A stretch of DNA of 64,000 nt from Agrococcus beijingensis (GTDB lineage: Bacteria; Actinomycetota; Actinomycetes; Actinomycetales; Microbacteriaceae): positions 2,039,812-2,103,811 of the forward strand of contig NZ_CP132360.1 in NCBI RefSeq assembly GCF_030758955.1, written 5' to 3'. A program made the translations under genes and the position numbers. The notes below the pieces were generated by a model, which saw only the letters and a list, made by a program, of their open reading frames with translations, was not told the origin of the DNA and made no database searches. Below, one piece after another: positions 54,254-64,000 of the stretch (within the stretch, counting starts at the first letter, position 1; every line of letters starts with the position of its first letter).

Positions 54254-55315
54254 TCAAGCGCACGCCTCCCAGTCGCGCTCGGTCGGCGGGGTGCTGCCGC
54301 GCGGGATCGGCGCGCTGCACAGCCAGTCGATGCCGCCCGCGGCGCCCACCGCCGCGCGGACGCCCACCTCGAGCTGCGTCGGCCCCGACGTGCCGTCCTG
54401 CAGCACGCGCACCGGCACGTCGAAGTCGACCGCGCTGTCGGGCGCGAGGCTCGAGGTGGTCTGGTCACCCAGACCGAGCAGCGCCGGGGAGGGCAGCCCG
54501 CACGAGCCGCTCGCCTGGCAGGCCACGGCGTGCGACAGGGCCAGCGCCCTGACCTGCTCGACCAAGCCGTCTGGCACGCTCCAGCGCGCCGGGTTGCTGA
54601 ACTGCGCCGTGCTCGGGTCGCCGTCGATGACGACGGTCGCCGCCTCGACGTTCGCGACGCCGTGGTCGAACGCCTCGACGCGGTACATGCCCGGGTACAG
54701 CGGCGTGGCCTCGCCGCCGGCGACCTCGGCGCCCAGCTGACGCGGCAGCGCCCCGAGCCCGGCGGCGTCGAGCAGCACCGGCTCGGCCACGGTGGTCGTC
54801 AGGCGCCAGGATCCGCCCTCGCGCACCGCATCGAGCTGCCGCTCCACGCGTCGCTGCCCGGTGCGGAAGTCGACGACCACGGTGGCGGTGTCGCCGTCGA
54901 GCTCGACCGCCTCGACGCCGAACGCCGGGAGGCGAGCCGCTGCGGCGAGCGCCGCGGCGGTGAGCAGCGGTGCCGGGCCGTCGACGGGCACCAGCGCGGT
55001 CGCGGCATCGCCGCGGCCGTCGGCGATCGCCCCGAGGTAGTCGACGGCGACGGCGGTGAGCGCCTCGGTCGCGGCCGCTTCGGCCTGGCGCTCCACTGCC
55101 TGCACGATCGCCGCCGTGGCGCCGCCGATCACGGCGAGCCCCACCAGGACGCCGCCGACCATCATCCGGCGGCGGGCCGCCGTGCGCGGTGCGGCCGGGG
55201 CTGGGTCTGGTTCAGCAGCCGCAGGCTCGTTCGCCGCTGGAAGCGATGCGTCGGCGCGCTGTCGGGCCTCCGGCCGTTGCGGCGGCATCTCGAACTCCGG
55301 CATCCCCGACGACAC
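54254..55315 (-). CDS. MPEFEMP-family membrane-anchored protein 1
   Basis: I do not recognise a named family. This 353-residue protein starts with the motif MPEFEMP (residues 5-11). A Pro/Ala/Glu-rich cytoplasmic tail, RTAARRR, and one membrane helix (about 51-71) follow, so the rest lies outside the cell. The outer part begins like an NTF2-type domain (VDYLGAIADGRGDAATALVP, then TATVVVDFRTG and GSWRLTTTVAEPV). It continues with LYPGMYRVE, IDGDP and a cysteine pair CQASGSC, and has two more cysteines at the C-terminus. The start is GTG at 55315. It is a close tandem duplicate of the next upstream gene. Confidence 0.8.
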   Translation of the reverse strand: MSSGMPEFEMPPQRPEARQRADASLPAANEPAAAEPDPAPAAPRTAARRRMMVGGVLVGLAVIGGATAAIVQAVERQAEAAATEALTAVAVDYLGAIADGRGDAATALVPVDGPAPLLTAAALAAAARLPAFGVEAVELDGDTATVVVDFRTGQRRVERQLDAVREGGSWRLTTTVAEPVLLDAAGLGALPRQLGAEVAGGEATPLYPGMYRVEAFDHGVANVEAATVVIDGDPSTAQFSNPARWSVPDGLVEQVRALALSHAVACQASGSCGLPSPALLGLGDQTTSSLAPDSAVDFDVPVRVLQDGTSGPTQLEVGVRAAVGAAGGIDWLCSAPIPRGSTPPTERDWEACA

Positions 55316-55331
55316 GCCTCCATCATCGCCC
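55316..55331 (-). promoter_or_regulatory. Conserved 16-bp leader box of MPEFEMP gene 1
   Basis: GGGCGATGATGGAGGC directly precedes the GTG start. The same position before three paralogues carries GGGC(C/G)A(A/T)GATGG and four further bases ending in C. Here the box also contains GGAGG, so it can act as a ribosome binding site. Confidence 0.5.
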
Positions 55332-55342
55332 AGGGAAGAGGC

Positions 55343-56221
55343 TCAGGCGCACGCCCCCAGCAGCGCGCCGGGGGGCACCGCGCACGAGCCGGCCGACTGG
55401 CAGGCGGTGGCGTGCGACAGCGCGCGCTCCGGAGCGCCATCGAGGACGTCGGTCGGAGCACTCCACGCAACGGTCCACCCAAGCGATTGGAAGTCGACGG
55501 TCGTGCGGGGGTCGCCGTCAACCACGAGCGTGACCGGGCTGATCTGCACGAACCCGTGCTCGATCGCCTCGGTGCGGTACATGCCGGGGTAGAGCAGCGT
55601 GCCGCCATCGCGGCCGATCTCCATGTCGAGCAGCCTCGGGAGCGGACCGATGACAGACTCCTCGAGCACGACGCGCTCGGCGAGGCTGGTCGTCAGCCGC
55701 CACGTGCCGTCCTGGCGCACGGCGTCGAGCCGCCGCTCGACGCGGCGCTGCCCGCTGCGGAAGTCGACGACCACGGTCGCGCTGTCGCCGTCGAGCTCGA
55801 CCGCCTCGACGCCGCACTCCTGGATGCGAGCCGCTGCGGCGCGCGCCGCGTCGGTGAGCAGCCGTGCCGGGCCGTCGACGGGCACCATCGCGGTCGCGGC
55901 ATCGCCGCGGCCCTCCGCGATCGCCCCGAGGTAGTCGACCGCGACGGCGGTCAGCGCCTCGGTCGCCGCGTCGTCGACCGCGCGCTGCACGCCCTGGACG
56001 ATCGCCGCCGTCGAGCCGCCGACGATCGCGAGCGCCGCGAGGACGGCGCCGACGATGAGCCGGCGGCGAGCGACTCCGTGCCCGGAGCCCTCCCGGGGGA
56101 GGTCTTCCTCGTCCCGCTCGTCAGCAGGCGCTGCAGGCTCTGCCTCGACCGTGCGCGCAGGGCTCGCCGCTGTGCCCGGCTGCTCGGGCGGCATCTCGAA
56201 CTCCGGCATCGATGTCGGCAC
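55343..56221 (-). CDS. MPEFEMP-family membrane-anchored protein 2 (C-terminally shortened)
   Basis: This 292-residue tandem duplicate of protein 1 has MPEFEMP at residues 5-11, an acidic cytoplasmic tail and one membrane helix (about 55-75). The same NTF2-like segment follows (VDYLGAIAEGRGDAATAMVP), with LYPGMYRTE, VDGDP and CQSAGSC. It ends LLGACA. Protein 1 has about 60 further residues after LLG before its own end, EACA. The final residues match, which suggests an internal deletion rather than a simple early stop. The C-terminal cysteine pair is thereby reduced to one. Start is GTG at 56221. Confidence 0.78.
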   Translation of the reverse strand: MPTSMPEFEMPPEQPGTAASPARTVEAEPAAPADERDEEDLPREGSGHGVARRRLIVGAVLAALAIVGGSTAAIVQGVQRAVDDAATEALTAVAVDYLGAIAEGRGDAATAMVPVDGPARLLTDAARAAAARIQECGVEAVELDGDSATVVVDFRSGQRRVERRLDAVRQDGTWRLTTSLAERVVLEESVIGPLPRLLDMEIGRDGGTLLYPGMYRTEAIEHGFVQISPVTLVVDGDPRTTVDFQSLGWTVAWSAPTDVLDGAPERALSHATACQSAGSCAVPPGALLGACA

Positions 56222-56237
56222 GCATCCATCATCGCCC
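56222..56237 (-). promoter_or_regulatory. Conserved 16-bp leader box of MPEFEMP gene 2
   Basis: GGGCGATGATGGATGC precedes the GTG at 56221. It differs from the box of gene 1 at one position and lacks GGAGG. Conservation without a normal Shine-Dalgarno suggests another role, such as a -10 element of a leaderless promoter. Confidence 0.45.
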
Positions 56238-56267
56238 AGTCCGCTGTGGCGGTGCCGCGCGGCTCGC

Positions 56268-57227
56268 TCAGGCGGCGGGCACGAACCCGGCCGGGCCGCC
56301 CCAGATGGCGACCGCGAGGCCGACGCCGTAGAGCAGCGCGGTCGCGCCGGTGAGCCCGAGCGCGGTGATGAGGTCGCGCGGCGAGCGCGCCATCACGACG
56401 ATCACCATCGCGGGACCCGCCAGCAGCAGCACGGCGAAGACGACGAAGCCGTAGGCGAGCGCGTACGAGAAGACCCAGAGGATGACGAACGGCACGAGCA
56501 TCAGCGCGACGTAGAGCGCCTTCGAGGGGCCGCGGCCGATCAGGGTCGCCAGGCTGCGCTTGCCGGCGGCGCGGTCGGTGTCGATGTCGCGCAGGTTGTT
56601 GCACACCATCAGCGCAGCCGAGATGCAGCCGATCGCGACACCCAGCGCGATGGCGTCCTCGGTGACGCGACCGATGATCGCGTAGACGGTGCCGCAGACG
56701 GCGACGGGCCCGAAGAAGAGGAACGCCATCAGCTCGCCGAGCGCGTAGTACCCGTAGGGACGCTTGCCGCCGGTGTAGCCCCAGGCGGCGAGCAGGCACA
56801 CGACGCCGACGAGCAGCAGCAACCAGCGGCCGCTCAGCAGCACGACCACCAGCCCCGCGAGCGCACCCGCGGCCAGGAAGCCGATCGCGACATTGCGCAC
56901 CGCCTTCGGCGCCGCCTTGCCGGCACCGACGAGGCGGCCGGGGCCGACGCGCACCGCGTCCGTGCCCTTCACGCCGTCGGAGTAGTCGTTGGCGTAGTTC
57001 ACGCCGATCTGCATGCAGATGGCGAGCGCCAGGCAGGCGAGCGCGATGCCGAGGTGGTAGCCCTCGGCGTTGAACGCCGCGGCGGTGCCGAGCACGACGG
57101 GCGCGATCGCCATGCCGAGCGTGCGGGGGCGGGAGGCAGCGATCCAGTCGCGCCAGGTCGCGGGGCTCGGCGCGGTGCCGTCGTGCTGGGCGCGCTTGGC
57201 CGGGTTGCCGGAACGAGGAGAGGACAT
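56268..57227 (-). CDS. menA: 1,4-dihydroxy-2-naphthoate polyprenyltransferase
   Basis: This 319-residue UbiA-superfamily enzyme attaches the prenyl chain to dihydroxynaphthoate. The first prenyl-diphosphate-binding motif is NYANDYSDGVKGTD and the second is NLRDIDTDRAAGKRSL. About eight or nine membrane segments are visible. I chose the ATG at 57227, behind GAGGTGA, rather than the longer frame. It lies downstream of menE on the same strand. Confidence 0.95.
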   Translation of the reverse strand: MSSPRSGNPAKRAQHDGTAPSPATWRDWIAASRPRTLGMAIAPVVLGTAAAFNAEGYHLGIALACLALAICMQIGVNYANDYSDGVKGTDAVRVGPGRLVGAGKAAPKAVRNVAIGFLAAGALAGLVVVLLSGRWLLLLVGVVCLLAAWGYTGGKRPYGYYALGELMAFLFFGPVAVCGTVYAIIGRVTEDAIALGVAIGCISAALMVCNNLRDIDTDRAAGKRSLATLIGRGPSKALYVALMLVPFVILWVFSYALAYGFVVFAVLLLAGPAMVIVVMARSPRDLITALGLTGATALLYGVGLAVAIWGGPAGFVPAA

Positions 57228-57259
57228 CACCTCGATGGTAGTCAGCCGGCGCGGCCCTC

Positions 57260-58258
57260 CTAGCCGAAGAGGCCTCGGCGGCGCTCCTGCGTGCGGCTCG
57301 CCACGAGGCGACCCAGGCGCTTGCGGTCGGGCTTGCCGGAAGGCGTGGTCGGCATCACCGACACCGTCACCAGGTGGTTGGGGCGGGCCGGCTTGCCGAG
57401 CGCGTTGCCGACCGCCGCGCGGATCTCGGCCAGCGACGGCTTCAGCGTCGTGACGACCGCCGGCACCTCGCCCCACTCGGGGTGCGGGGCGGCGACGACC
57501 ACCGCATCCGCCGCGAAGGTCTGCACCACGTGCTCGACCGCGGCGAGCGAGATCTTGATGCCGCCCGAGTTGATGACGTCGTCGATGCGGCCAGAGACCT
57601 GCAGCGTGCCGCCGATCAGGCTGCCGGCGTCGCCGGTCTTGTACCAGCGGGTGCCGGAGCCGTCGGTGACGAAGCGCTTCTCGGTGAGCGCGGCGTCCTC
57701 ATAGCCGTCGGCGAGCTGCGGAGCCGCGATCTCGATCTGATCGGTGAGGCGGATCTTCACGTCGCGCAGCGGCTGGCCATCCCACACGCAGCCGCCGACC
57801 GTCTCGGTCGCGCCGTAGGTGCGGGTGATGCGCCAGCCGAGCCGTGCGGCGCGCTCGATGAGGCCGAACGGCGCGCGCTGGCCGCCGAGCAGGATGCGGT
57901 CGAGGCGCGCGATCGGCCCGATGAACGAGCGGTCGAGCGCGGCCGCGTCGACCAGCCGGGCGAGCTGGGTCGGCACCAGCGAGGTGTACTTGCGGTCGTG
58001 CTCGAGGCTCTGCACCGCCTCGACGAAGGCCTCGGCCGTGAAGGCGCCCTCGGTGCGCACGAGCGGGGCGCCCGAGACCTCGTTGCGCCAGACCACGTTC
58101 TTGCCGGCGATGTAGTGCTCCGGCAGCGCCAGCACCCACTGACCGGCGCCGCCGAGCCGCTCGATGGCCGCGTCAGTGGACGCGGCGATCGCCTCGTCGG
58201 AGATGATGACGCGCTTGGGCACGCCGCTCGATCCGCTCGTCTCGACGACGATGCCCAT
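57260..58258 (-). CDS. menE: o-Succinylbenzoate-CoA ligase, short form
   Basis: This 332-residue acyl-CoA synthetase begins almost at the ATP-binding loop (VETSGSSGVPKRV, residues 4-16). It keeps RTYGATETVGGCVWDG, WYKTGDAG, GRIDDVINSGGIKIS and the C-terminal catalytic lysine region TPSGKPDRKRLGRLV. The N-terminal 90-100 residues of longer MenE proteins are missing, though short MenE forms are known in actinobacteria. I prefer the ATG at 58258 because GGAGG is at good distance; the GTG at 58264 is too close. It lies between menB and menA. Confidence 0.92.
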   Translation of the reverse strand: MGIVVETSGSSGVPKRVIISDEAIAASTDAAIERLGGAGQWVLALPEHYIAGKNVVWRNEVSGAPLVRTEGAFTAEAFVEAVQSLEHDRKYTSLVPTQLARLVDAAALDRSFIGPIARLDRILLGGQRAPFGLIERAARLGWRITRTYGATETVGGCVWDGQPLRDVKIRLTDQIEIAAPQLADGYEDAALTEKRFVTDGSGTRWYKTGDAGSLIGGTLQVSGRIDDVINSGGIKISLAAVEHVVQTFAADAVVVAAPHPEWGEVPAVVTTLKPSLAEIRAAVGNALGKPARPNHLVTVSVMPTTPSGKPDRKRLGRLVASRTQERRRGLFG

Positions 58259-58293
58259 GGTCACACCTCCGTTCGCGTCGGGATCCTGCTCGT

Positions 58294-59193
<900 letters not shown>

Positions 59194-59246
59194 CCGACCA
59201 CCCTAGCCATCGGAGCGCCCCGATTCTGGGTGCCGGATCCTGGGTG

Positions 59247-60320
59247 TCAGGGCTCGCAGGTCGAGGTCGGGCCGCCGAGCACGCCCGGCTGGCCGCACTC
59301 CCAGCGCAGGGGCTCGTCGCGGTCGTCGAGCACGGCGCGCAGCTGCATCTGGAAGAACGGCTGCGCCGGGGCGTCGAGCGCCGTGAAGCCCACGATCAGG
59401 TCGATGGTGCGCGCCACCGGATCCGACGCCGTCAGCGTCACCCGGTCGACGAAGCGGAGCCGCGATCCGGACGGCACGAGGCAGCCCGGACGCTCCCGGC
59501 ACGACTCGATCGCAGCCTCGGCGAGCTCCGTGGCGCGCTCCGCCACCGCAGGCACGACCGTCACGGTCACCTCGGGAGCGGTCGGCGTGCGCGGGTCGCC
59601 GTCGACCGCGAAGACGTCGCCGCCGACGACCAGCACCGGCCCCGCTGCCGCGTCGAAGGTGTAGACGCCGGGGTACAGCATGACCGGCAGGAAGCCGCCC
59701 AGCCGCACGCCCGCGACCGTCGCGCGGAGCGAGTTGCCGGGCTCGCGGGCGTCGACGACCTCGGCGAGCGAGGTGCGCAGCTGCCACGCGTCGTCGACCC
59801 GCTCGGCCTGCAGCGTGCGATAGACGTCGACGCCGTAGACCCGGTAGTGCACCTCCGCGGTGCCGCGGTCGCCCTCGACGTGCACCACCTCGACCTGCGG
59901 CACCTCGATCGTCCGCGCGGCGCGGAGCACCTCGGGCGGCGCCGCGTAGGCGAGGCCGCGGATCGGCACCATCTCGGTCGCGGCGCGCGAGTCGCCGGCC
60001 GCGATCGCGTCGACGTAGGCGAGCGCCGCCGCCCGCAGCTCCTGCGCGGCGGTGTCGGCACCCGCGCGCTCGGCCGCGACGAGCGCGCCCGGCACACCGA
60101 TCCCGGCGACCAGGCCCAGCACCGCTGCGGCGGCGAGGTGCGTCCACCTGAGCCGCCGCCGGCCTCCGTGCTCGGTCGGGTCGAACCCGTCGGGCTCGAG
60201 CACCGCCGGGTCGGGAGGCACGATCTCCACCGGCCGCCGCGCCTGCTGGGCCTCCGAGCGCATCGACGCCGCAGTCGACTCCGGCGGTGGCATCACGAAC
60301 TCCGGAGAGCCGGTCGACAT
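59247..60320 (-). CDS. MPEFEMP-family membrane-anchored protein 3 (divergent)
   Basis: This 357-residue paralogue has a variant N-terminal motif, SPEFVMPPP (residues 5-13), a cytoplasmic tail ending GGRRRLRW, and one membrane helix (about 60-82). The outer part has LAYVDAIAAGDSRAATEMVP, VHYRVYG, DAWQLRTSLAEV, LYPGVYTFD, VDGDP and a cysteine pair SCRERPGC, and ends WECGQPGVLGG...CEP with the second cysteine pair. It starts with ATG at 60320 behind GGGAG rather than the conserved leader box, so expression may differ from its relatives. It lies just downstream of protein 4. Confidence 0.78.
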   Translation of the reverse strand: MSTGSPEFVMPPPESTAASMRSEAQQARRPVEIVPPDPAVLEPDGFDPTEHGGRRRLRWTHLAAAAVLGLVAGIGVPGALVAAERAGADTAAQELRAAALAYVDAIAAGDSRAATEMVPIRGLAYAAPPEVLRAARTIEVPQVEVVHVEGDRGTAEVHYRVYGVDVYRTLQAERVDDAWQLRTSLAEVVDAREPGNSLRATVAGVRLGGFLPVMLYPGVYTFDAAAGPVLVVGGDVFAVDGDPRTPTAPEVTVTVVPAVAERATELAEAAIESCRERPGCLVPSGSRLRFVDRVTLTASDPVARTIDLIVGFTALDAPAQPFFQMQLRAVLDDRDEPLRWECGQPGVLGGPTSTCEP

Positions 60321-60393
60321 GGCGACATTCTCCCGCCGGCGCGGCCTTCCGGCCAGTGTCCTCTTGCCGACAGTCCGGCGCCAGCTGCGCGCA

Positions 60394-61533
60394 TCAGCCG
60401 AGCGCCGGGCAGGGCGTGAGCGCTCCCTCGTACTCCCCCGGGCGCCCGCACTCCCACCGGGTCGGCACGCCCTCGGCGTCGTAGTGCATCCGCACCTGCA
60501 TCTCGACCGCCGGGCCGCGCACCCCCGACGTCAGCGGCACCACCAGCTGCACCGTGCCCGCGGCCCCGTCGTGCCACAGCACGTAGGCGCCCTGGTTCGC
60601 GTCGAGGCCGTCGGTCGACTGCAGCGGGCAGTCGGGGGCTGCGACGCACTCGACCGCCGCCCGGAACGCCATCTCGCCGGCAGCGGTCGCCAGCGCCGGC
60701 TCCAGCGACATCGTGGGGAAGATCTCGACCGCGGTGCGGGGATCCCCGTCGACGGTGAAGCGCTCGCCGGCGGTGCGGAGCACCGGCCCGGACGTCTCGT
60801 CGAGCGTGTAGCCGCCGGGGTAGAGGAGGAGGCGATCGATCAGCGGCGTGCCGGCGATCATCGCCACATCGCCCTGCTGGCTCGCGAAGACGCTCACGGG
60901 CTCGGCCAGCGAGGTGACCAGCCGCCAGGCGCCGTCGACGCGCTCCGCGTCGAGCAGGATGCGCGTGCTGCCGCGACCGGTGCGGAACGAGATCGCGACG
61001 CTCGCCGCGTCGCCGTCGACCTGCACCTGCCAGGTCTTCACGCCCTCGATCGGCGCTGCGGCGGCGAGCACCGCGTCCGGCGCGACCTCGTCGCCCGCCG
61101 ACCCCGGCGGCACCATCGCCGTCGCGTCGGCGGCTCGGCCCTCGACGATCGCCCGCATGTAGTCGTCGGCGAGGGCGCGCACGGCATCGACCTCCCCGGC
61201 CGCCGCGGCGCGCTCGAGGCCCTGCACCGTCGCGGGGATGCCCGCGCCCAGCAGCGCGCCGACGAGCCCGGCGACCAGCAGGTGCCGCCACACGAGCCTC
61301 GGTCGCTGCGCGACCCGGTCGTCGGATGCTTCGGGCTCGGCCGTCAGGTCGGTCGCGTCGCTGGCGGGGCGGGGCGGGGCCTGCACGTGCGGCGCAGTGC
61401 CCGGATGCCGCTGCGCAGTGCCCGGATGCCGCTGCGCGGTGCCGGGATGCTGCTGCGCCGTGCGATCGAGAGCGGCACTGGTCGGCGCCCGCTCCCCGGC
61501 AGGCATCTCGAACTCCGGCATCGCCGTCGACAC
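60394..61533 (-). CDS. MPEFEMP-family membrane-anchored protein 4 (with heptapeptide repeats)
   Basis: This 379-residue paralogue has MPEFEMP at residues 5-11. Three tandem copies of the heptapeptide HPGTAQR or close variants follow (about 29-48), then an acidic stretch DLTAEPEASDD and one membrane helix (about 84-104). Outside are ADDYMRAIVEGRAADATAMVP, SFRTG, GAWRLVTSLAEPV, LYPGGYTLD, VDGDP, CVAAPDC, and the C-terminal MQVRMHYDAEG...WECGRPG...PCP. The juxtamembrane sequence RHLLVAGL is shared with protein 5, making these two the closest pair. The start is GTG at 61533. Confidence 0.8.
   Translation of the reverse strand: MSTAMPEFEMPAGERAPTSAALDRTAQQHPGTAQRHPGTAQRHPGTAPHVQAPPRPASDATDLTAEPEASDDRVAQRPRLVWRHLLVAGLVGALLGAGIPATVQGLERAAAAGEVDAVRALADDYMRAIVEGRAADATAMVPPGSAGDEVAPDAVLAAAAPIEGVKTWQVQVDGDAASVAISFRTGRGSTRILLDAERVDGAWRLVTSLAEPVSVFASQQGDVAMIAGTPLIDRLLLYPGGYTLDETSGPVLRTAGERFTVDGDPRTAVEIFPTMSLEPALATAAGEMAFRAAVECVAAPDCPLQSTDGLDANQGAYVLWHDGAAGTVQLVVPLTSGVRGPAVEMQVRMHYDAEGVPTRWECGRPGEYEGALTPCPALG
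61392..61454. repeat. Three tandem 21-bp repeats inside MPEFEMP gene 4
   Basis: Units start at 61392, 61413 and 61434. The first two are identical and the third has three changes. Each encodes one HPGTAQR-like heptapeptide on the minus strand, so copy number can change without breaking the frame. Confidence 0.85.
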
Positions 61534-61549
61534 GACACCATCTTGGCCC
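61534..61549 (-). promoter_or_regulatory. Conserved 16-bp leader box of MPEFEMP gene 4
   Basis: GGGCCAAGATGGTGTC precedes the GTG start at 61533. It has no Shine-Dalgarno match better than AGATGG. The same box stands before gene 5, and a variant before genes 1 and 2. Confidence 0.45.
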
Positions 61550-61606
61550 TTCCGCGGCGCGTTGGCGCCTGCGGAGATCCGTCGTCGGTGCGCCCGCCCG
61601 GCCAGC

Positions 61607-62716
61607 TCAGTCGATGGTGGGGCACGGCGCGAGCTCGACCTCGTAGGAGCCGGGCAGGCCGCATTCCCACCGCGTCGGCGTGCCCGCGTCGTCGTAGTAC
61701 ATCCGCATCTGCAGATCCAGGTACTGGGCGGCCGCGCCGTCGTTCGCCATCATCTGCACCGACAGCTCTGCGAAGCCGAGGCTCTCGTCGCGGCGATGCA
61801 CCCACACGTTGTTGGCCGAGCCCGTCAGCTGCGCGCCAGGAGGCACGCGGCACTGCGGGGTGCCGGCGCACGCCTCGACCGAGCGCAGCGCTATCTCGAC
61901 CGCCTGATCCTGCACGCGAGGCACCAGCATGATGCTCGTGTAGACCTCCACCGGCGAGCTCGGGTCGCCGTCGACCACGAACGGCTCGCCGCTGGTCATG
62001 AACAGCGGCCCCGCGGCCTCGTCGACCGTGTAGCGGCCGGGATACAGGTGCGTGCGCCGGTCGACCAGCGGCGTGCCGGCCACCGTGGGCTCCTGGCCGG
62101 GCTGATTCGCGTAGACCACCACCGGCTCGGCGAGCGAGGTCGTCAGGCGCCACCCGGCGTCGGAGCGCTCGGCCTCGAGCGTCAGCGTCCTGTCGCGACC
62201 CGCGGCGCGATATTCCACCGAGACGGTCGCCAGGTCGCCGTCGATGTGCACCTGGCGCGTCTCGATCTCGGCCGTCGGCCGCGCCGACGCCAGCACCGCG
62301 TCGGGCGCCGCCACGGCGCGCGCCCCGTCGAGCGGCACGATCGCGGTCGCGTCGTCGGCGCGCCCCTCGGCGATCGCCGTCAGGTAGTCGGTCGCGAGCG
62401 CCCGCAGCCCTTCGACCTCGGCGGCGGCGACTGCCCGGTCGACCACCTGGAAGGTGGCCGGCACCGCGGCACCGATGACCGCGCCGATCAGGCCCGCGAC
62501 CAGCAGGTGGCGCATGCCGAGGCGCCGACGTGCCGGCAAGGGTTCGTCGGATGCGTCGGGCTCGGTCGTCAGGTCGTTCGCGTCGAGCGGGGCCGGGCCG
62601 CCGTCGCGCACCGGCGGCGCGCCGAGCGGGTGCCGTGCCGCGCCGTCGGCTGCGCGCGCGGGCAGCGTCTCCGGCGCAGCGGCAGGCATCTCGAACTCGG
62701 GCATCGGCGTCGACAC
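61607..62716 (-). CDS. MPEFEMP-family membrane-anchored protein 5
   Basis: This 369-residue paralogue has MPEFEMP at residues 5-11, a long Pro/Ala-rich cytoplasmic tail with DLTTEPDASDE, and one membrane helix (about 70-90). The outer part contains TDYLTAIAEGRADDATAIVP, EYRAAGR, AGWRLTTSLAEPV, LYPGRYTVD, VDGDP, CAGTPQC, and the C-terminal LQMRMYYDDAG...WECGLPG...PCP. The GTG at 62716 fits the family start and lies behind the conserved leader box; the frame is open further upstream, but that part is not shared. Confidence 0.8.
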   Translation of the reverse strand: MSTPMPEFEMPAAAPETLPARAADGAARHPLGAPPVRDGGPAPLDANDLTTEPDASDEPLPARRRLGMRHLLVAGLIGAVIGAAVPATFQVVDRAVAAAEVEGLRALATDYLTAIAEGRADDATAIVPLDGARAVAAPDAVLASARPTAEIETRQVHIDGDLATVSVEYRAAGRDRTLTLEAERSDAGWRLTTSLAEPVVVYANQPGQEPTVAGTPLVDRRTHLYPGRYTVDEAAGPLFMTSGEPFVVDGDPSSPVEVYTSIMLVPRVQDQAVEIALRSVEACAGTPQCRVPPGAQLTGSANNVWVHRRDESLGFAELSVQMMANDGAAAQYLDLQMRMYYDDAGTPTRWECGLPGSYEVELAPCPTID

Positions 62717-62732
62717 GAGTCCATCTTGGCCC
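62717..62732 (-). promoter_or_regulatory. Conserved 16-bp leader box of MPEFEMP gene 5
   Basis: GGGCCAAGATGGACTC precedes the GTG at 62716. Twelve of its first 12 bases match the box before gene 4, while the coding sequences beside it differ more. Confidence 0.45.
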
Positions 62733-62863
62733 GTGCGGCCGCCGGAAGCACCCCGCGGGAGCGAATCGTCCACCGCCGTGTCCAGCGGGTGCGCCCCGGC
62801 CTCGTCGACGAACGGTCAGAGCGGTGCCGAGGCGTCCGCTCAGGCCCGACGCATCCGCTCAGA

Positions 62864-62917
62864 CCCGACGCGTCAGATCGGCCCGACGCGTCAGATCGGC
62901 CCGACGCGTCAGATCGG
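62864..62917. repeat. Three perfect 18-bp repeats spanning a stop codon
   Basis: CCCGACGCGTCAGATCGG is repeated at 62864, 62882 and 62900. Degenerate units containing CCCGACGCATCCGCTCAG lie just before. Each perfect unit contains TCAGAT, which on the minus strand is the final Ile codon and stop of the adjacent membrane protein. Confidence 0.85.
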
Positions 62918-63295
62918 TGCCGAGAGCGCTCCGAGGAAGCCCCAGCCGAACCAGCTCGCCGCGCCGAAGAGCACGAGGAACCCGAGACCCAGGGCGCTGC
63001 CGAAGACGCCCGCTCGTCGCCCATCCGCCTTGGTCGCGGCCATGCAGCCGACGACGACGCCGACCAGCCCGACGATCACCGCGGTCGCCAGCACCGCGAT
63101 CACGATCGGCAGCTCGCCCGGGCGCGGAGCGAACAGATAGCTGAACTGCTGCACGAGCGAGAGCACCTGCAGCACGAGCGCCGCCCCGAGCAGCCAGATC
63201 GACAGCGCACCCAGGAACGCGGCGCGGCGGTCGTGCACGACACGGCGCGCGGGCCGTTCGACTGCAGCGGCTTCGTCGAGGAGATCTTGGAGCAT
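62909..63295 (-). CDS. Small membrane protein between MPEFEMP genes
   Basis: This 128-residue protein has three hydrophobic segments (FLGALSIWLLGAALVLQVLSL, IVIAVLATAVIVGLVGVVVG, GVFGSALGLGFLVLFGAASWF) and a basic N-terminus (VERPARRVVHDRRA). I recognise no family. It lies between two paralogues of the MPEFEMP family on the same strand, which may mean a functional link or only position. Its stop codon is embedded in a threefold 18-bp repeat. Confidence 0.7.
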   Translation of the reverse strand: MLQDLLDEAAAVERPARRVVHDRRAAFLGALSIWLLGAALVLQVLSLVQQFSYLFAPRPGELPIVIAVLATAVIVGLVGVVVGCMAATKADGRRAGVFGSALGLGFLVLFGAASWFGWGFLGALSAPI

Positions 63296-63351
63296 CGGTC
63301 GATGCTACGAGCGCGACCGAGCGCGGCACGGAAGGCGCGCGGACGCATCCG

Positions 63352-64000
63352 TCACGGGCCGCAGGGCCGCGGCTCGTCGCCCGCCAGCGCGCAGCGCATG
63401 CCCTCGAAGGTGCTCAGCGACGGGTTCATGAAGCCGACGATCTCGAGCGACGTGCCCACCTCGCCCGAGGCGACCGGCACCTGCACCGCCACCTCACCGG
63501 CCTGGCCGATGCGCGGCACGACGATCGGGTCGGGCAGCTCGGCATCGATGCCGGCCGGCAGGGCGCAGGTGCGCGCCGCGCTGCACTCCGCCACGAAGGC
63601 GCGGCCGGCGGCGGCCAGCTCGGCGATCGCCGCGGCCGACAGGGTCGGCTCCAGGTCGATCGCCACCTGCGAGCGCGGATCGCCGTCGACGTCGACCGTC
63701 GTGCCCGCCATGCTCACCAGCGGCGTCTCGATCGGCTCGACCCTGTGGCGCCCCGGCAGCAGCAGCAGCGAGCGGGTGGCCGGAACCACGCCGATCGCGT
63801 CGACCTGCACCGGCACCGAGAGCGTGCTGCGCACCGGCACCACCTCGCCGAGCGTGCGCTGCATGCGCCAGGCGCCGTCGGCGAAGACCGCGTCGATGCG
63901 CCGCAGCACCGTGCGGTCGGCCACCGCGTAGGAGACGCTCACCTGCGCCGTGCCGTCGCCCAGCTCGACACCGGTGATGCGGGGGCTGTGCAGCCTGCCC
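63352..64000 (-). CDS. MPEFEMP-family protein 6 (5' end outside the window)
   Basis: Only the last 216 residues are visible, because the frame runs off the window. What is seen matches the outer part of the family: ELGDGTAQVSVSYAVADR, GAWRMQRTLGEVV, LLPGRHRVE in place of the YPGxY element, VDGDP, the cysteine pair ECSAARTC followed by ALPAG, and a C-terminal pair MRCALAGDEPRPC. It is the most divergent member. Whether it begins with the MPEFEMP motif cannot be checked here. Confidence 0.72.
   Translation of the reverse strand, partial: GRLHSPRITGVELGDGTAQVSVSYAVADRTVLRRIDAVFADGAWRMQRTLGEVVPVRSTLSVPVQVDAIGVVPATRSLLLLPGRHRVEPIETPLVSMAGTTVDVDGDPRSQVAIDLEPTLSAAAIAELAAAGRAFVAECSAARTCALPAGIDAELPDPIVVPRIGQAGEVAVQVPVASGEVGTSLEIVGFMNPSLSTFEGMRCALAGDEPRPCGP

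Follow-up and report, generated by a model that had tools for sequence, protein, structure and literature searches.

The chromosome of Agrococcus beijingensis (a single contig of 2,892,984 bases) contains six tandem paralogous genes, g1 to g6, amid genes for menaquinone (men) synthesis. We analyzed them in a 64,000-nucleotide stretch of this chromosome (the window). (The men, ccs and DUF4229 names are what we take these genes to be from their sequences.) All six genes are on the minus strand; five are complete and one crosses the window edge, and they share one architecture, as a preliminary description of this DNA had stated. Each protein carries a short motif close to its N-terminus: PEFEMP in g1, g2, g4 and g5, PEFVMP in g3, and PEFQMP in g6. 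We propose that these single-pass membrane proteins combine a constant cytoplasmic plug with exchangeable extracytoplasmic heads, and we judge this to have an even chance of being right. The family, its locus, the motif, the selection on the peptide, the variation of the tether, and the mosaic heads were computed directly.

A selected peptide near the N-terminus

We searched 24 genomes of the genus with a profile of the six members (E ≤ 1e-10) and found the family in 21 of them, including 18 of the 19 that are at least 90% complete and little contaminated. From the stretches around the matches in these 21 genomes, an iterated profile yielded 63 open reading frames (ORFs) of the family, and 61 of these have P-[E/D/Q]-F-x-M-P near the start codon. 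The likely start codon is usually five residues ahead of the first motif proline. The linker between the motif and the transmembrane (TM) helix varies from 9 to 94 residues and the motif keeps its N-terminal place at any linker length, so the earlier claim that the motif survives while the linkers diverge holds across the genus. Of the two exceptions, one runs off the end of its contig and the other, a full copy in genome G304, has neither motif nor linker. A further relative (P0051) has PRFEMP.

Across the 61 motif-bearing rows, the first proline is encoded by CCG (36), CCC (24) or CCA (1) and the last by CCG (34), CCC (20), CCT (4) or CCA (3). Position 2 is GAG (35), CAG (15), GAC (10) or GAA (1); position 4 is most often GAG (37); and F and M are TTC and ATG in all 61. 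On a tree of these rows (in whose construction the motif columns were used), the two prolines underwent 14 and 13 codon changes and no amino acid changes. F and M did not change (the single codon for F is little informative because these genomes are GC-rich), while there were 7 changes at position 2 (between E, D and Q) and 18 at position 4. The median across 294 well-filled columns was 20 changes; nine columns had none, and four of these are the P, F, M and P of the motif. These four and one tryptophan are the only columns that are invariant in all 61 rows, which must be weighed together with the 61 of 63, because the rows were picked for bearing the motif. Among family members, the tail is the most constrained part of the protein, and the linker and the head are the least constrained.

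In the 2.89 Mb genome of A. beijingensis, the DNA pattern for PEFxMP has seven matches: six are in g1 to g6, and the seventh falls within another frame, 352 residues in. As a control, the reversed pattern gave 0 or 1 match per strand per genome in the 24 genus genomes. Among 299 Microbacteriaceae genomes, the DNA pattern for M-P-[E/D/Q/H]-F-x-M-P occurs in 11. Six are the Agrococcus genomes of this set; in the five from other genera, the matches fall in short frames or deep within a frame and appear to be due to chance. None of 31 homologues from other genera has P[EDQ]FxMP, and one has PQFPAP near its start. Because the proline codons change silently, F and M are fixed, and the 31 outside homologues do not have the motif, we conclude that P-[E/D/Q]-F-x-M-P is a genus-specific peptide under strong selection. 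As far as the sequences go, the conserved tail is consistent with a peptide that something else recognizes and does not fit an RNA or start-site signal.

We also examined 14 non-family matches from the 24 genus genomes (L117-L123, L125-L129, L133, and L136; a recurring PEFCMP match and a PDFYMP match were each examined in one genome). In thirteen cases the match sits deep within another frame or in one that closes 16 residues later. The remaining match (L117, at G000:1440196) falls two residues downstream of a potential start, in an Arg/Ser-rich frame of 116 residues that looks spurious. We attribute all 14 to chance; in these searches, the motif stood at protein starts in this family alone. 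The +1 frame over the motif encodes a Cys/Arg-rich peptide in several copies, but by eye it has a stop in g3, and we rejected it as an alternative reading. In a minority of relatives from other genera (L037, L038, L039, and P0035), we saw by eye a P-x-F near the N-terminus (PLPAFPG, KTPEFPGGD, GPQFPAP), perhaps a remote version of the tail.

The motif may have been overlooked because some gene predictions start at its second Met, which deletes it. The predicted start of P0052 (from Agrococcus baldri) is MPAEV and the DNA reads VPPSMPEFEMPAEV, so this prediction begins at the motif's second Met. P0010, P0011, P0023, P0052, P0053, and P0054 all begin with MP[A/P], which fits such a start (we compared the DNA for P0052).

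Divergent and mosaic outer parts

The outer parts of these proteins are unusually divergent and mosaic, which bears out an earlier suggestion that the outer domains are varied. In g1 of genomes G308 and G265, the distal half is 57-71% identical at the DNA level, as against 93-99% for the flanking menA and 98% for the spacer. Similarly, one copy in G223 and G049 is 55-67% identical, as against 89-98% for the neighboring menB. For these two pairs, the heads are 45% (G308/G265) and 33% (G223/G049) identical, while the TM parts are 87% and 93% identical. The ratio of nonsynonymous to synonymous divergence (dN/dS) was 0.10-0.74 in 12 between-genome comparisons of the family; the controls gave 0.02-0.22 (14 comparisons of menA, menB, menC or menE) and 0.25 (one comparison of ccsB). 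(These are simple Nei-Gojobori counts, and the family comparisons may include paralogues, for instance in the first g5 pair of G308/G265.)

Parts of a single protein can have different closest relatives. The N part of the G223 copy is closest to G049 (78%) and its C part is closest to G299 (48%). The N part of the G265 copy is closest to G308 (76%); its C part is 69% identical to g2 of A. beijingensis over 119 residues, 49% identical to g1 of A. beijingensis over 194 residues, and 43% identical to G308. Overall, the nearest neighbor by the TM and NTF2-like part differs from the nearest neighbor by the head in 31 of 61 rows, although some of these assignments are unstable at low identity. Between g1 and g2, dS is 0.05 in residues 101-150, as against 1.36 over the first 50 residues, which is a sign of local gene conversion.

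Architecture and relation to known families

The columns that are invariant across g1 to g6 include (in g4 numbering) M1, P6, E7, F8, M10, P11, P239, G240, D262, G263, D264, P265, C296, C302, and C375. The YPGxY element of the preliminary description is present in five members, and g6 has LLPGRH instead; the second C-terminal cysteine pair, described for most members, is indeed present in all but g2. Another candidate motif in the linker, T[AT][ED][PR][DE], occurs in just 6 of 61 members and is not general. Structure prediction, which had been suggested as a check, gave a TM helix and an NTF2-like fold: the AlphaFold2 model of g3 has a helix at residues 59-107 and an NTF2-like fold at about 86-185, with a mean predicted local distance difference test score (pLDDT) of 87.3. 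The outer part is predicted to be an NTF2-like stalk (like that of Rv0361 or DUF4878 proteins) with a cystatin-like head, and its paired cysteines probably form disulfides.

One of the closest known families is Rv0361, in which one TM helix is followed by an NTF2-like domain, as in the g3 model. Among genus members, 42 of 61 match Rv0361_Cterm (NCBIfam NF051431) at E ≤ 0.01, with a best E of 8.5e-10, and g3 matches over residues 59-180 (27.4 bits). The curated cut-off of 37 bits was not reached by g1 to g5 (14-27.4 bits), and the part of g6 in the window had no match; some genus relatives may pass 37 bits. Beyond what it has in common with Rv0361, the window family has the PxFxMP tail, the YPG/DGDP module, the Cys-paired head, and the tandem arrangement amid men genes. 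In one study, Rv0361 of Mycobacterium tuberculosis was seen in total protein, in the membrane fraction and at the surface, with other bands elsewhere (PMC2891697).

Profile matches extend beyond the genus: of 299 Microbacteriaceae genomes, 64 have one at E ≤ 0.001 (including six Agrococcus genomes), and of 149 genomes from across the order, 21 have one at E ≤ 1e-6 (A. beijingensis included). Bitopic homologues from other Microbacteriaceae, some of them named DUF4878 domain-containing (in Mycetocola and Labedella), align with the window proteins across the TM helix, the NTF2-like stalk, PGxY, and a conserved cysteine. However, those that we read mostly have long Pro/Gln/Gly-rich cytoplasmic parts.

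We also compared the family with class B penicillin-binding proteins (PBP5fm and PBP2a), which have a membrane-proximal NTF2-like domain, although similarity of fold shows no function. The window proteins (292-379 amino acids) are too short for a transpeptidase domain, and none was seen among the Pfam matches of the six window proteins or among 25 of the 35 families listed for the 61 members. TcaA and YvbJ are bitopic zinc-ribbon membrane proteins with paired CxxC in a cytoplasmic N-terminal element, extracellular beta modules, and an NTF2-like domain. In contrast, the six window proteins have no zinc ribbon, because they have no cysteines before the TM helix, and their domain order differs from that of TcaA and YvbJ. 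PADLOC anti-phage profiles gave no match at E ≤ 0.01 for g1, g3, g4, g5, g6 or the neighboring mem128.

The TM and NTF2-like part is of a known kind, so the earlier claim of novelty does not extend to it. What appears to be new is the tail, its restriction to the genus in these searches, the array amid men genes, and the mosaic heads. Our literature search found no description of the tail, of a tandem array amid men genes, of the mosaic heads, or of a pattern that is fixed inside and exchanged outside.

Locus and gene content

A survey of gene neighborhoods, another check that had been suggested, found a family copy next to menB, on the side towards mem128 and menC, in all 21 family-bearing genomes (on two contigs in G310). 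No men gene was matched in ten 10-11 kb stretches around homologues from outside the genus. There are one to six copies per genome. In at least four genomes (A. beijingensis, G174, G265, and G308), copies lie between menA and a DUF4229-like gene; this is a lower bound because the site is visible in only part of the fetched stretches. Two extracted copies, G303b and G316b, are away from the men locus. The profile did not find the family in G301, G306 (78% complete) or G315 (86% complete), and the men stretches of these genomes have no tblastn match to the six members at E ≤ 1e-3 (the G306 contig is 4.8 kb). The men genes seen in these three genomes are in place, and a Pro/Gln-rich ORF with hydrophobic helices sits between menC and menB. 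In G302, from a divergent clade, the family genes overlap, starting one base before the preceding stop (L151 8530-11809), which suggests translational coupling ahead of menB. Elsewhere in G302, outside the men locus, the profile has a match (E 3.7e-14, G302:C1:1658820-1659608) within an open frame of 1,949 residues.

In the window, the minus-strand order is g6, mem128, g5, g4, g3, menB, menE, menA, g2, g1, with intergenic gaps of 56, 192, 73, 73, 53, 29, 32, 46, and 27 bases. Because these gaps are short, a long common transcript is plausible. (A promoter and terminator scan of the array gave one promoter-like site inside and no terminators, and was uninformative.) g6 (63352..64000, continuing outside the window) is complete at L005:10363-11310 and starts with MATAPEFQMP. 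mem128 (62909..63295) encodes a small hydrophobic protein with about three helices by eye and no Pfam match above the cut-off; each of the other 20 genomes with the family has a tblastn match to it that adjoins the array or menC. g5 (61607..62716, motif at 62684..62701) has a GTG start at 62716. g4 (60394..61533, motif at 61501..61518) has a tandem PGTAQRH repeat in its linker (21 bp x 3.4, at 61392-61463), and another tandem repeat (18 bp x 5.6, at 62815-62917) lies between mem128 and g5 and touches the end of mem128; both are possible slippage sites. g3 (59247..60320, motif at 60288..60305) starts with MSTGSPEFVMP. It is followed by menB (58294..59193), menE (57260..58264), and menA (56268..57227), within the same co-directional cluster. 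g2 (55343..56221, motif at 56189..56206) is without the distal head yet ends in ...LLGACA (compare ...EACA in g1), which looks like an in-frame internal deletion of the last domain. g1 (54254..55315, motif at 55283..55300) begins VSSGMPEFEMP and is predicted to be bitopic, with the TM helix, the NTF2-like stalk, the YPG/DGDP beta module, and the Cys-paired head.

Upstream of g6 and beyond the window are menC (on the opposite strand) and cytochrome c assembly-like genes. Searches of the genome with g4 (E ≤ 1) and with the six-member profile found no members beyond g1 to g6.

Alternative explanations

The alternative that survives best, which we nevertheless consider rather unlikely, is that this is an unremarkable, fast-evolving envelope family of the Rv0361/DUF4878 kind and that its tail is a lineage-specific signal for sorting or turnover. 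The matches to Rv0361_Cterm, the profile matches across Microbacteriaceae and the order, and the 31 motif-less homologues outside the genus all agree with this. However, it would leave the top-rank conservation of the tail and the sharply bounded variable heads unexplained.

It is unlikely that the family is a tether for the menaquinone pathway, with a tail that recruits soluble MenB, MenE or MenD to the membrane beside MenA (as a metabolon) and an outer part that is a mere anchor. This would account for the copy beside menB in 21 of 21 genomes and for genes that run co-directionally with menB-menE-menA at gaps of 27-192 bases. But G303b and G316b are away from the men locus, and in the three genomes where the family was not found (two of them incomplete), those men genes that we saw are in place. 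Furthermore, an anchor role would leave unexplained why there are one to six copies and why their heads are divergent and mosaic.

We think it quite improbable that the tail mimics that of FtsZ, such that a hydrophobic-P-[D/E]-F core, by binding the pocket for the FtsZ C-terminal peptide (which in Actinobacteria belongs to SepF), would bring these proteins to the site of division. FtsZ of A. beijingensis ends in EDEFLPDFLR, which shares an [L/M]-P-[D/E]-F core with the motif. In Corynebacterium glutamicum, the FtsZ peptide, with its conserved residues D436, P438, and F440, is a ligand of SepF (PMC7118173). Relative to this D-x-P-x-F core, the six window proteins have P-x-F but not the Asp two residues before the P, and they add an invariant M-P after the F. 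Also, a likeness of four residues could be chance.

Finally, a nucleic-acid or translation-initiation signal would fit the position of the motif at the start codon, the near-identical DNA there in some copies and the upstream bases that several have in common, but it is highly improbable given the freely changing proline codons and the varying distance from the motif to the likely start.

A proposed constant plug with exchangeable heads

We return to a constant cytoplasmic plug with exchangeable heads, which explains these observations most simply. The P-[E/D/Q]-F-x-M-P tail would dock onto one common cytoplasmic protein, which is most simply why the peptide would be selected, and it would sit on a tether of low conservation. 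The TM helix is predicted to run into the NTF2-like stalk with its YPG/DGDP beta module and then into the cystatin-like, Cys-paired head. The heads would diversify through fast change and exchange between lineages, as might be expected if what they encounter outside (ligands, competitors or phages) keeps changing. We infer the topology, the binding, the single partner and the role in recognition; candidate partners are the men enzymes, by neighborhood, and SepF, by the four-residue resemblance to the FtsZ tail.

Several observations weigh against this explanation. The motif-less copy in G304 (L139, beside menB) begins with MAAARADGAGARRSLGWRHLL and keeps the TM helix and the outer domains; the preliminary description had named such a loss in an orthologue with the rest retained as refuting its proposal, and we found it once. 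The rows of our tree were selected for the motif, and very divergent copies may escape the profile. Some copies are conserved throughout: G308 and G265 share 90% identity in the g6 type, and G223 and G049 share 94% in one of their copies. Where the heads are variable, dS is raised, which points towards recombination or hidden paralogy and is no proof of positive selection.

The G304 copy is also a natural test case. If the tail docks on one protein, then a single experiment with a short synthetic peptide of the MSTAMPEFEMPPE type could retrieve the partner and put the entire system to the test. A pattern that is fixed inside, exchanged outside, and kept at one chromosomal address is what would be expected of recognition systems. 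A tentative and rather doubtful extension is that the family is a polymorphic receptor array: the six-residue plug, present in nearly all members, would wire horizontally shuffled heads to one cytoplasmic output, and would give the genus a modular surface-recognition repertoire within a respiratory-quinone cluster.

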